The translations under genes were made by a program, and so were the position numbers. DNA of 38,420 bases, from positions 226,603 to 265,022 of the forward strand of contig MGIW01000003.1 of the NCBI GenBank assembly GCA_001793945.1, written 5' to 3'. The DNA comes from Candidatus Wolfebacteria bacterium RIFOXYD12_FULL_48_21. GTDB lineage: Bacteria > Patescibacteriota > Minisyncoccia > UBA6257 > UBA9933. This document shows positions 3,377-38,420 of the stretch, one piece after another (the first letter of the stretch is position 1; each line of letters opens with the position of its first letter). The notes below the pieces were generated by a model that saw only the letters and a list, made by a program, of their open reading frames with translations, ran no database searches and was not told the origin of the DNA.

Positions 3377-3595
3377 TTATTTAATGAGCGTAACAAGCGA
3401 CAACGCTGCGAACGCAATGGCAATAACAATGGTCGCTGCGAAGATGATGCGCTCAAAGCCGCGGCGGGTCTGGTATGCGCCGCTTTCCGAACCGCCACCA
3501 AAAGCGCCGGAAAGGCCCGATGTGCGCTCCTGCAACAAAATAAGGATGATGAGAACGAGCGAAAGGATGACTTGGGATAGGGAAATGTAGTTCAT
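3377..3595 (-). CDS. secG: Preprotein translocase subunit SecG
   Basis: 72 aa, two TMs, LVLIILILLQERTSGLSGAFGGGSE is SecG-like. Confidence 0.85.
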   Translation of the reverse strand: MNYISLSQVILSLVLIILILLQERTSGLSGAFGGGSESGAYQTRRGFERIIFAATIVIAIAFAALSLVTLIK

Positions 3596-3603
3596 AATTT
3601 TTT

Positions 3604-3725
3604 AAAACGCACATATTCGGCGAATTACTTTGTTGCGGGGCCCTATCGATTCGGTCGCAGTACTACTGTACAGCTTACTCATCGATTTTCCCGCGCCTCG
3701 CACTTCACTCAAATCCGAGCGTTTT
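3604..3725. repeat. Structured ~122-nt element, copy A
   Basis: Aligns with 4952..5074; terminal AAAACGC/GCGTTTT, inner ATCGAT/ATCGAT and GCGGG/CCCGC pairings. Confidence 0.75.
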
Positions 3726-3746
3726 AAGCTGGGGTTACTGTTCGTA

Positions 3747-4112
3747 TTACTCGGCGTATGTTCTGCGGGCCGCCATGCTTATGATGACATTGACCGCGCC
3801 GATGATGAGCGTCGCGTAGGCGAGGGGCTCAAGTCCTTGTATGGTAACATTTTCCGAGAAATAATCAAGCAGATACAGCATCAATGCGTTGATGACCAGC
3901 AAGCCCAGTCCGAGTGAAAGCACGATGACCGGGCCAAGGAGGAGCTTTAGAATGGGGCGGATCAGGATATTGATCGCTGTAAATATCGCCACTACTATAA
4001 GTAGTTGCTTCAGTTCGCCCGTTATAATGAAGCCGGTTATGTATGTTTTTGCCACAATAAACGCGAGCAGGTTCGAAAACAGTGAAAAAACGACCCGAGA
4101 TAGAAGTTTCAT
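3747..4112 (-). CDS. Phage holin family protein (4-TMS, superfamily IV type)
   Basis: 121 aa, four hydrophobic helices, IRPILKLLLGPVIVLSLGLGLLVINALMLYLLDYF typical of this family. Confidence 0.75.
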   Translation of the reverse strand: MKLLSRVVFSLFSNLLAFIVAKTYITGFIITGELKQLLIVVAIFTAINILIRPILKLLLGPVIVLSLGLGLLVINALMLYLLDYFSENVTIQGLEPLAYATLIIGAVNVIISMAARRTYAE

Positions 4113-4244
4113 TGCCCATAGTATACCACAAAAAGTAGATACATCTATAACGGCCTTACGGTCCCTATGCGCGTATATCGATTTTTGCTATACTTGTAGC
4201 ACCTGAAAGGTCGAAAAACATAAAGTGTCATTTTTCATTTTTAA

Positions 4245-4946
4245 ATGGAGAATGATAGCAAACAAATGTTCGTACAAAACCTAACAAGCACGCTTTACGG
4301 TTCGCTGGCAAGCGTGTGGCTTGGAGTAATGGCATTCGTGCCTAAGTTTCTCGGAGCGCTCATCGTTTTGATCATCGGTTTGGTCATCGCATCCGTTTTC
4401 GGATCGGTCGTCGAGCAGATCATCAAGGCGGTCAAGTTGGATGAATTGTTGAAGAAGCTCGGCGTTGCTCAATATGTTGAGCGCGGCGATGTGCGCCTTG
4501 ATTCAGGACGCTTCCTGGGTCGCGTTGTTTACTGGTTCTTCGCAGTTGTTGCCATTCTTGCCGTTTCCGGCATCTTGGGTCTTGATGTCTTTTCTGATTT
4601 CTTGAAACAAGTATTGTTGTATGTTCCGAATATCGTTGCCGCTGCATTGATCATGCTTGCGACCTTGGTAGTTGCGAAGTTTTCCAAGTCATTGGTCAAA
4701 GCTTCCGTATCAAGCGCAAAATTGAGCGCAGCCAACTTTCTCGGATCATTCGTTTGGTGGACTGTCGTTGTTTTTGGTCTTATTACTGCTTTGATGCAGC
4801 TTGGGATCAACGTATATGTTCTTCAGACGGTTATCACCGGAGTCGTTGCAATGCTCGCCCTTGCGGGTGGCATCGCATTTGGCCTTGGCGGAAAGGATTA
4901 TGCAACTTCTCTGATTGAGAAGATGAAAAGGGAGACACAGGGCTAA
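4245..4946 (+). CDS. Conserved TM-helix / mechanosensitive-channel-like membrane protein
   Basis: 233 aa; VWLGVMAFVPKFLGALIVLIIGLVIA and GLGGKDYATSLIEK resemble TM_helix-repeat proteins. Confidence 0.75.
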   Translation: MENDSKQMFVQNLTSTLYGSLASVWLGVMAFVPKFLGALIVLIIGLVIASVFGSVVEQIIKAVKLDELLKKLGVAQYVERGDVRLDSGRFLGRVVYWFFAVVAILAVSGILGLDVFSDFLKQVLLYVPNIVAAALIMLATLVVAKFSKSLVKASVSSAKLSAANFLGSFVWWTVVVFGLITALMQLGINVYVLQTVITGVVAMLALAGGIAFGLGGKDYATSLIEKMKRETQG

Positions 4947-4951
4947 TTGAT

Positions 4952-5074
4952 AAATTGCACATATTTTGCGGGTTGCTTTGTTGCGGGGCCCCATTGGTTC
5001 GGTCACCGTATGTATAATACGGCTTCCTCTCCAATTTCCCCGCGCCTCGCATCCCATCAAAATCTGCACAATTT
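4952..5074. repeat. Structured ~122-nt element, copy B
   Basis: Aligns with 3604..3725; terminal AAATTG/CAATTT, inner ATTGG/CCAAT, CCGTAT/ATACGG, GCGGGG/CCCCGC. Confidence 0.75.
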
Positions 5075-5095
5075 ACATTACACATGTTTCTTATA

Positions 5096-5125
5096 AAAAG
5101 ATGCTACTTGCGTGGCATCTTTTTT
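5096..5125 (+). terminator. Rho-independent terminator
   Basis: AAAAAGATGC tacttgcgtg GCATCTTTTTT. Confidence 0.8.
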
Positions 5126-5140
5126 GTTACTTTTCCGCAT

Positions 5141-5278
5141 TGTCATCCCGATCGGCCACCTGCCTGCCGGCAGGCAGGGCTGGCGGACGAGGGATCTGCA
5201 GTAGATAAAGCAGATTCCTCGACTCCGCGGAGTACCGTGGAGTTTGCCCTGAGCCCGTCGAACGGGCCCGGAATGACA
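5141..5278. repeat. Long REP-like palindromic repeat, variant with inserts
   Basis: TGTCATCCCG...GAGGGATCTGCAG...CAGATTCCTCGACTCC...CGGAATGACA. Confidence 0.85.
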
Positions 5279-5448
5279 AAATGACACTCCGACTCTTTAT
5301 AAGGTCTTTTTTGTTCGGAGGGTAGAAATCGGATATACTTACAATAACGCATAACTAATAACAAATAACTTTTAACAAAATACCAAAGAGGGAATATATT
5401 TTTCGTATTCTGTCATTAGTTATCTGTCAGTAGTTGTTAGTCATTTAC

Positions 5449-10128: not shown

Positions 10129-10233
10129 TGTCATCCCGAGTGAAATGAAGCGAAGCGGAATGAAACCGAGGGATCTGCAGTATATAAAGCAGATTCCTCG
10201 ACTCCGAAGAGTACTTCTTCACTCGGAATGACA
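10129..10233. repeat. Long REP-like palindromic repeat (~105 bp)
   Basis: TGTCATCCCGAGTG...GAGGGATCTGCAG...CAGATTCCTCGACTCC...CACTCGGAATGACA. Confidence 0.9.
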
Positions 10234-10268
10234 AATACGCATAAAGACGATTTAAATAAATAAAAATC

Positions 10269-11758: not shown

Positions 11759-11775
11759 GGCGCTCTATCTCAAGT

Positions 11776-11870
11776 TGTCATCCCGAGTGAATCCGCCAGT
11801 CGGCGGAGAAATTGAGGGATCTGTTACAGATTCCTCGGCTTCGCGGAGTACCGCTTCGCTCGGAATGACA
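11776..11870. repeat. Long REP-like palindromic repeat
   Basis: TGTCATCCCGAGTGAATCC...GGATCTG...CAGATTCCTCGGC...GCTCGGAATGACA. Confidence 0.9.
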
Positions 11871-11920
11871 AATTGTGACGCTTGGCCAATATTCGCCTAT
11901 TCCTGTATAATAAAACTATT

Positions 11921-13337: not shown

Positions 13338-13444
13338 TGTCATCCCGAGTGCAATGCAGCGAAGCGAAATGGAATCGAGGGATCCGCAGTAATAAACAGA
13401 TTCCTCGGCTCCTCCGCCTGCTGGCGGATACGCTCGGAATGACA
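13338..13444. repeat. Long REP-like palindromic repeat
   Basis: TGTCATCCCGAGTGCAATGCAGCGAAGCGAAATGGAATCGAGGGATCCGCAG...CAGATTCCTCGGC...GCTCGGAATGACA. Confidence 0.9.
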
Positions 13445-13559
13445 ATGCCGTGGGCAGAAATAAGAGACAAGAGGAGGAAATTTCTAATTATTAATTTCTA
13501 AGGAGTGGCGTTTCTTGAAAATGTCGCGCATTGCGCGACATTTTTGGTATACTAAACAC

Positions 13560-14713: not shown

Positions 14714-14830
14714 GAAATGAGAGATGAGAGGTATGAGGTATGAGGTATGAGATATGAGATATGAGATATGAGGTATGAGATATGAGATATGAGATATGAG
14801 ATATGAGATATGAGATATGAGATATGAGGT
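14712..14830. repeat. Tandem array of ATGAGATATGAG-type simple repeat
   Basis: Repeats of GAGATATGA / GAGGTATGA directly after hsp20. Confidence 0.9.
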
Positions 14831-14838
14831 AAAAATTC

Positions 14839-14912
14839 AAAAAACGCATGCCGTGCGGCATCGGGAGGAGGGTTTTCTTCATCCTCCTTCAACCGCATGG
14901 CATGCGTTTTTT
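14839..14912. terminator. Nested hairpin element, copy 2; terminator-like on both strands
   Basis: AAAAAACGCATGCC..GCGG ... CCGCATGGCATGCGTTTTTT around GGAGGA/TCCTCC; core shared with 3269..3334. Confidence 0.75.
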
Positions 14913-20514: not shown

Positions 20515-21330
20515 ATGATCAGTAACTACGAGTTTATCAAGACGCAGGCATACGAAATATCATGGGCCGTATTCCGATGCGCCGAATTGTTCTCCCAAGC
20601 CAAATTAAGGGGAGAAGTAGAAGCTGCTGCGGTCGATTTGATTGCGGATCACGCTGTGGCAAACAGTGTGGCAGACGGCGATTTCCCCCGCATCGACAAG
20701 CTTACTTCGTTGATCCGGCTGGCCGAGTCGGTTGGGCAAATAGCTCCGGTGAACGCAAATGTCCTGTATCGGGAACTCGACAATCTTACCAAAGCGCTTA
20801 GGATTGAAGTCGCCGAACAGCACAACAAAAAGAACATTACAGCTTCGCTCGAGCAGATTTTTACCAATACGGCATATGCAAATAACCTACAACCAATAAC
20901 TAATAACCAGCAACAGAATTCGGGTCTTGGAGATTCGGCAAGAATTTCTTCTGCCACTTCTGCTTCCCCTATCATCCCCACCCTTCGGCAAGATAAGGAT
21001 ACTCAATTCGGCAGCGTAGAAGCATTGCTTTCGGCGGCTGTTCGACCGGCCCAGCTAACTCCTGCACCGATGCAAAAGGCTCCAATAGTTCGGCAACCGC
21101 TTACCCCTGTCAGTTCGGCAACCGCGTCGGTGCAGGCAGGATCATGGCAGTTTGTCATTTTGCAAAAGGTAAAAGATCTTGGGCAGACCACTACCAAAGA
21201 GCTCACGGCAAGCTTCCCTGAGATCAGTGAGCGGACCATCCGTTTCTACCTGCAAAAGCTTGTGGATAACGGCTCCATAGACCGCATAGGCTCTTCCGGA
21301 CCCGGATCGGCGTATCGGGCGAAGGGGTGA
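20515..21330 (+). CDS. Putative DNA-binding protein with C-terminal winged helix
   Basis: ILQKVKDLGQTTTKELTASFPEISERTIRFYLQKLVDNGSIDRIGSSGPGSAYRAKG is a DeoR/wHTH-like domain; N-terminal helical domain and low-complexity linker. Confidence 0.75.
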   Translation: MISNYEFIKTQAYEISWAVFRCAELFSQAKLRGEVEAAAVDLIADHAVANSVADGDFPRIDKLTSLIRLAESVGQIAPVNANVLYRELDNLTKALRIEVAEQHNKKNITASLEQIFTNTAYANNLQPITNNQQQNSGLGDSARISSATSASPIIPTLRQDKDTQFGSVEALLSAAVRPAQLTPAPMQKAPIVRQPLTPVSSATASVQAGSWQFVILQKVKDLGQTTTKELTASFPEISERTIRFYLQKLVDNGSIDRIGSSGPGSAYRAKG

Positions 21331-21409
21331 GATGAGAGGTGCGAGATGAGAGATGCGAGGTGAGAGGTGCGAGATGAGAGGTGCGAATAGGGGAGCAGAG
21401 AATATTCGA

Positions 21410-21438
21410 ATAAAACAGCCCCAAAGGGCTGTTTTATT
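21410..21438. terminator. Bidirectional terminator hairpin
   Basis: AATAAAACAGCCC caaa GGGCTGTTTTATT. Confidence 0.8.
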
Positions 21439-21547
21439 CCTCATATCTCATATCTCATATCTCATACCTCTTATCCGTGTAACAAATGAAGAATAGCGCC
21501 GTTATCTTTAGTATGGATGCATACTGGTCGACTTTTGGTCTCAGTTG

Positions 21548-36786: not shown

Positions 36787-36910
36787 TGTCATCCCGAGTG
36801 CAGTGCAGCGAAGCGGAACGAAATCGAGGGATATGCATACTACAGATTCCTCGACTCCACGGATTACCGCGGAGTTTACCCTGAGCTTGTCGAACGGGCT
36901 CGGAATGACA
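36787..36910. repeat. Long REP-like palindromic repeat
   Basis: TGTCATCCCGAGTGCAGTGCAGCGAAGCGGAACGAAATCGAGGGAT...CAGATTCCTCGACTCC...CGGAATGACA. Confidence 0.9.
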
Positions 36911-36922
36911 CATTGAACACAC

Positions 36923-37025
36923 TGTCATCCCGAGTGTAATGCAGCGAAGCGGAGTGAAATCGAGGGATCCGTAGTAACGAGCAGATTCCTCGGCTCCGCA
37001 GAATACTGCTCCACTCGGAATGACA
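36923..37025. repeat. Long REP-like palindromic repeat
   Basis: TGTCATCCCGAGTGTAATGCAGCGAAGCGGAGTGAAATCGAGGGATCC...CACTCGGAATGACA. Confidence 0.9.
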
Positions 37026-37086
37026 AGGAACTGGATACCGGCTTTCGCCGGTATGACAATACAGGGGTTCGGTACTTACATCGCAT

Positions 37087-38216: not shown

Positions 38217-38319
38217 TGTCATCCCGAGTGCAACGCAGCGAAGCGGAGTGAAATCGAGGGATCTGTTTCGTACTGCAGATTCCTCGACTGCGCGGGGTAC
38301 CGCTCCGCTCGGAATGACA
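38217..38319. repeat. Long REP-like palindromic repeat
   Basis: TGTCATCCCGAGTGCAACGCAGCGAAGCGGAGTGAAATCGAGGGATCTG...GCTCGGAATGACA. Confidence 0.9.
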
Positions 38320-38328
38320 AAAACACAT

Positions 38329-38420
38329 TGTCATCCCGAGTGCAGCGCAGCGAAGCGGAGTGAAATCGAGGGATCTGCATACACTACAGATTCCTCGGCT
38401 CCGCAGAGTACTGCTCCACT
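38329..38420. repeat. Long REP-like palindromic repeat, cut by window end
   Basis: TGTCATCCCGAGTGCAGCGCAGCGAAGCGGAGTGAAATCGAGGGATCTGC...TGCTCCACT. Confidence 0.9.

Follow-up and report, generated by a model that had tools for sequence, protein, structure and literature searches.

The window, by which the whole analysed stretch of 38,420 nucleotides is meant, carries two members of an undescribed family of dispersed hairpins. With a probability of roughly one half, the element is mobile DNA of the Patescibacteria that folds into a hairpin and is non-autonomous, similar to a MITE or a palindromic repeat. This reading is based on copy number, patchy occurrence, the gain, loss and replacement of copies at individual sites, decayed remnants and an insertion in an rRNA gene. 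Its main rival is a host function at gene borders. Here, the genome of the window is denoted G000, and three other Candidatus Wolfebacteria (congeners) are denoted G001, G002 and G003. The orientation of both copies on the plus strand of the window is termed W and its complement M, W-left being the low-coordinate end.

Structure and Covariation of the Element

The preliminary description reported an element of ~122 nt that occurs twice with shared blocks. Alignment of the two stretches over their full length bore this out, with 83% column identity and with the model edges listed in Table 1. The left edge of copy 1 is located 6 nt from the start codon of secG, a distance formerly given as ~9 nt, while copy 2 directly follows a mechanosensitive-channel-like gene (stop codon 4944-4946). 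The loop blocks in the core of copy 1 read GCGAAyTrCTkyGTTGCGGG ... TCGGTC ... CCCGCGCCTyGCAyTTCA. Compared with dinucleotide shuffles, both strands of both copies folded far better, and the effect was strongest on the minus strand (z = -5.0 for copy 1 and -7.8 for copy 2, with 0 of 200 shuffles as good); the plus strand of copy 2 gave z = -5.7.

Table 1. Positions of the hairpin element, its neighbours and other repeats. Positions refer to the window unless a locus is named.
Feature	Position	Strand	Remarks
Copy 1 of the hairpin element	3602-3726	M (minus), better folding strand	R1 match G000:C3:230204-230328, 127.8 bits
Copy 1, setting			151-nt gap from secG (start codon 3595, -) to the Phage_holin_4_2 gene (stop 3747, -)
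Copy 1, left arm	3602-3620		pairs with 3710-3726; fold and arm helix
Copy 1, core, subtype A	3621-3709		conserved internal loops and two covarying inner stems
Copy 1, right arm	3710-3726		fold
Copy 2 of the hairpin element	4950-5075		R1 match G000:C3:231552-231677, 121.2 bits
Copy 2, left arm	4950-4968		pairs with 5058-5075; fold
Copy 2, right arm	5058-5075		fold
secG	3377-3595	-	neighbour, outside the element
Phage_holin_4_2 gene	3747-4112	-	neighbour, outside the element
Channel gene, MS_channel_1st_1, PF05552	4245-4946	+	neighbour, outside the element
Intrinsic-terminator-like hairpin with T tract	5095-5124	+	downstream of copy 2, distinct from the element
TGTCAT...ATGACA family	5143-5279, 10129-10243, 11775-11879, 13338-13445, 36787-37034, 38217-38420
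Seven-base tandem arrays, GAGATAT / GAGGTAT and relatives	14721-14845, 21315-21397; inverted 21433-21475
Head-to-head pairs of shorter relatives	L154 4300-4513; L243 329-537; L244 1396-1607; L245 1391-1604; L246 1501-1707

As a whole, the element is a 125-nt imperfect palindrome with outer arms of 16-20 bp, the sequence of which is free to vary while complementarity is kept. Between the arms is a core in which the internal loops are conserved and two inner stems covary. The apical part of this core exists as two interchangeable subtypes (A and B), and the basal part is common to both. Conservation is found at the junction of arm and core (TTGGCGAA.../...CATCCAA) and in the internal-loop blocks. 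Outside Wolfebacteria, the arms display a weak TIR-like consensus (TARRAC.../...GTYYTA), and the ends of the Wolfebacteria copies are highly variable.

The compensatory stem changes that had been claimed from the two copies are real and become decisive once 90 copies are compared; chance is ruled out. Compensated double changes were already present in 25 of the 43 pairs when nine copies were available. Two larger alignments were then fitted to the covariance model and are thereby biased towards its pairing: for 90 copies from four genomes, 92.8% of the cells in the 43 pairs were standard pairs compared with 70.8% after shuffling (0 of 500 shuffles), and for 89 copies outside Wolfebacteria, from other genera, orders and classes, 91.8% were paired against 59.8%, with 1120 double-change cells. 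Within the 90 copies, both-sided changes occurred in 40 of the 43 pairs, the arm helix was paired in 91.8% of cells, and sliding partners reached at most 44%. Furthermore, arms aligned by Watson-Crick matches only, independently of the model pairing, were 87% matched over 1538 columns.

Across all arms, mismatches on M comprise 108 G.T and 59 A.C, the reverse being true on W (A.C 108, G.T 59). Moreover, one core pair on M is U.G in 77 of the 90 copies, U-A in 6 and C-G in 5. From this G.T excess and the interchange at the core pair, M is most likely the folded strand. Folding of W, the mRNA sense behind most stop codons, and with it a W-sense RNA, is disfavoured; the mismatches on W are not those of an RNA, which also weighs against a host function. 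It should be noted that the excess on M is weak beside that in the acceptor and T stems of tRNAs from the same genomes (G.T 49 vs A.C 4). It is compatible with a DNA hairpin and a relaxed RNA alike, and does not decide between them.

Distribution

A pattern scan of the own genome with inspection supplied nine copies, from which the covariance model R1 was built. The model R2 was derived from 90 copies, and the E-values of the models come from a shortened calibration. With R1, 17 copies were found in the 879-kb genome of the window and 29, 34 and 14 in the three congeners. With R2, matches were present in at least 33 of 244 genomes of the host's order and at least 43 of 380 genomes of a phylum sample, both counts being lower bounds since only part of the candidates was scored. 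The spread across the phylum is patchy, with up to ~34 copies per genome. For example, one genome of another family contains 26 copies, while among other genera of the host's own family 0 of 18 genomes matched R1 and one weak match was obtained with R2. Many short, non-coding copies that vary between relatives, as expected of a MITE, are observed.

Plasmids, phages and viral contigs were searched and no element was found, two viral pattern matches not being elements. Exact-pattern matches in Proteobacteria and others do not score with the model and are due to chance; only three further records score (one Kaiserbacteria and two with no named phylum). Within what was searched, the element is confined to Patescibacteria. 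Comparison of the window, the congeners and distant copies with 4227 Rfam families, in gathering and E-value modes, returned sub-threshold noise only, and no description of the element was found in the literature on CPR repeats, palindromes and integrons or by its arm consensus string. The abundant further copies, the covariation and the lack of a matching Rfam family support the initial proposal of a dispersed structured element and not a fixed riboswitch. The genomes of Patescibacteria are very small, yet some hold tens of these hairpins against ribosomal, translation, ATP-synthase and gyrase genes.

Some copies are found in compound arrangements. Two elements lie in direct tandem behind one gene at G000:C6:71628-71904 (L040, L045). 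At G001:C3:40198-40328 and G003:C1:25264-25426, small palindromic insertions interrupt elements, which suggests repeats nesting in repeats.

Placement Relative to Genes

Gene context had been described as not constant. This view has to be replaced by a strict polar rule, in which W-left is positioned 0-10 nt outside a coding region, usually behind the stop codon. Among the 90 copies, W-left lies directly behind a stop codon in ~67 and just before the start codon of an M-strand gene in 18 (secG, rpsL, greA and nusB among them), ~5 copies having neither position. Both copies in the window follow the rule, the left edge adjoining the secG start in copy 1 and the channel-gene stop in copy 2. The rule was quantified with simple ORF-based gene calls in G002, an almost fully read genome (genomes other than G000 and G002 were covered in part). 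Here, the distance from W-left to a coding region was 10 nt or less in 28 of 33 copies, and that from W-right in 1, compared with a mean of 1.9 and a maximum of 7 for random placement in intergenic gaps over 2000 trials. The other five copies adjoin small r-protein genes or ORFs with mis-called starts or ends. The flanks at W-right are not conserved.

The neighbours are mostly core genes, the usual site being behind the stop codon, as for tuf, rpsB, rplL and gyrB. In one lineage they include tuf, S2, L10, L7/12, L21, L33, L34, S12, rpoB, gyrB and secA, and in a second S16, L11, S10, BipA, SecY, gyrA and Cpn60, so that the individual genes mostly differ between the two. Element polarity tracks gene direction in G002. 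A polarity set by the replication strand was considered and rejected: the copies in G002 look perfectly strand-partitioned, but the switch points miss the GC-skew extremes. These extremes are located at ~180 and 649 kb of G002:C1, and the genes there are strongly co-oriented with the skew arms.

A second palindromic family, TGTCAT...ATGACA (TGTCATCCCGAG...GGAATGACA and variants), is represented by ~126 units in the genome of the window. On either side it is equally close to coding regions in only 31 of 126 copies, which indicates that the polar rule is specific to the hairpin element. Where the hairpin element is missing from an orthologous site, a member of this family often fills the gap behind the stop codon, though not with the tight polarity of the element.

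Placement also bears on whether the element is a stand-alone RNA gene or a riboswitch-like cis-regulatory leader on the M strand. Such an RNA would be consistent with the strong covariation, the conservation of the internal loops and the folding preference of M, including its conserved U.G/U-A/C-G pair, and with the copies (~18 of 90) that precede a start codon in M sense, including those at secG and rpsL. However, M is antisense to the neighbouring gene in ~67 of the 90 copies, and the copies do not keep to one sense position within the 5' UTRs of related genes, as those of a riboswitch would. Given also the unconserved W-right flanks, a G.T excess (108:59) far below that of tRNA (49:4), the lack of a promoter-like site at the window copies and of an Rfam match, an M-strand RNA is improbable. 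Between the two options first put forward, MITE-like DNA or an RNA with its own function, the mobile DNA is better supported, through its presence and absence at orthologous sites, its decayed remnants, the exchange of subtypes at a site and the related copy in a 16S rRNA gene; a riboswitch or stand-alone RNA is disfavoured.

The position behind stop codons, together with the AAAAC...GTTTT ends that are frequent in Wolfebacteria copies, could suggest long bidirectional transcription terminators. This is the least probable of the readings considered. At the channel gene a separate terminator follows copy 2 (Table 1), so copy 2 is not itself the terminator, and a similar one occurs 3' of the orthologous copy behind the same channel gene in G002 (G002:C1:124526). 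At rplU and rpmG the same downstream terminator is kept in orthologues without the element, from which it follows that the element precedes the terminator, on the side of the stop codon, and does not constitute it. Moreover, in other lineages the ends are GTCCTA without a T tract, and many copies separate two genes read in the same direction, the next of which starts ~33 nt away.

Gain, Loss and Change at Orthologous Sites

Orthology was assigned by the best tblastn match of the neighbouring gene. At orthologous genes the element is present in some species and absent in others, often with no replacement. The site of copy 1 is empty in G002, where the holin-secG gap is ~8 nt compared with 151 nt in G000. 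A site common to G000:C6:203630 and G001:C1:342417 is likewise empty in G002; the remaining gap is unchanged (16 vs 17 nt), and the filled site represents a precise addition behind the stop codon. No obvious target duplication was evident in comparisons of empty and filled sites, which are compatible with TA. Decayed remnants of the element exist, and subtypes A and B were swapped between species at three orthologous positions (rpsL, rpmH and the gap between genes of 97-99 aa and 579 aa). At shared sites, the arms displayed 68 double WC-WC changes vs ~49 single changes. The arms thus change by compensated doubles in place, implying that something maintains the structure at the site.

A related insertion is found in L238 (family f21). 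Here, two shorter relatives in inverted orientation, with an additional long outer stem (1470-1745), interrupt a 16S rRNA gene in its helix-21 region. This gene seemingly also contains a group I intron. Inverted pairs of this kind are present in several genomes.

These observations bear in both directions on the main rival, a host-functional element at gene borders that would influence the stability of the mRNA, its translation or the local topology of the DNA and may be a domesticated older repeat. In-place upkeep of structure is not normally enjoyed by selfish copies, and the strict attachment to core genes, seen in two separate lineages and at a very tight, polar distance, fits a host function as well as mobility. 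Long-term maintenance of pairing by compensatory change at orthologous sites, together with this attachment, keeps the host function alive as an explanation. Nevertheless, it is rather unlikely when orthologous genes so often have neither element nor replacement, when mostly different genes are occupied in the two lineages, and when a related copy is located inside a 16S rRNA gene. If functional, the element would be an uncharacterised gene-border signal of core genes; if mobile, it would be a phylum-wide parasite that follows an unusual targeting rule and depends on an unknown enzyme.

For the mobile element, a mechanism can be proposed. An enzyme supplied in trans would recognise the folded M strand, as suggested by the strand preference and by covariation without sequence conservation. 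It would insert the hairpin at gene borders, where a small self-folded insert would probably be tolerated; at filled sites the remainder of the gap and the genuine terminator are still present. The arms may stay complementary because the element has to fold, or because one arm is copied from the other. Neither a copy bearing a transposase or recombinase nor a related autonomous (parental) transposon was found in the 2.5 Mb examined. A RAYT/Y1 mobiliser was considered and rejected: no Y1_Tnp is present in G001, which has 29 copies, and the domain is common in genomes without the element.

Comparison with Known Systems

REP/BIME and ERIC sequences are non-autonomous imperfect palindromes that are short, non-coding and dispersed over intergenic regions, where many of them follow a stop codon. 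The element is likewise short, dispersed, intergenic, non-coding and palindromic. It differs in that its arms have no fixed sequence yet covary, that one end strictly adjoins coding regions, that no link to Y1/RAYT is present and that, within what was searched, it is confined to Patescibacteria. With MITEs it shares a non-autonomous nature, many copies, loss with remnants and, outside Wolfebacteria, weak TIR-like ends, whereas its ends are free to change as long as the change is compensated, a target duplication is not clearly seen and no parental transposon was found in 2.5 Mb.

In comparison with the attC sites of integrons, including VCR, as described in PMC2727003, the element is an imperfect palindrome of similar length with variable arms, in which structure is conserved over sequence, the strand antisense to the gene is folded, and the site is behind stop codons. 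The copies might represent recombination sites like attC that belong to an integron-type system and are scattered over the chromosome. Such an origin is very doubtful, as only 34 of 90 copies have both an AAC and a GTT box (R boxes), the integron integrase TIGR02249 scored above cut-off in 0 of 41 genomes with matches at control level, the flanking genes are core operon genes and not cassettes, and ~20% of copies precede start codons. The element provides a natural comparison for integron cassettes, namely of how recombination sites defined by structure only reach places behind stop codons.

A more far-reaching version of the mobile reading, unlikely at present, would be a new class of mobile element, restricted to Patescibacteria, for which a folded single strand of DNA is the moving form. 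Its targeting to the borders of translated regions would be polar, and its arms would be regenerated by fold-back copying. If the latter is true, the arms would drift in sequence and stay complementary.

Short (<200 bp), ORF-less insertions in CPR rRNA genes, at the tops or bases of rRNA stems, have been reported as uncharacterised and were not presented as one family (PMC11270868). The related double hairpin within the 16S rRNA gene of L238 resembles them, and the element may account for part of these unexplained short insertions in Patescibacteria.

Other repeats were also observed. Head-to-head pairs of ~104-nt relatives with CCCGAAGGG-like linkers occur in other families of the order (Table 1). 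In the window itself, seven-base tandem arrays are accompanied by matching inverted arrays elsewhere in the window.
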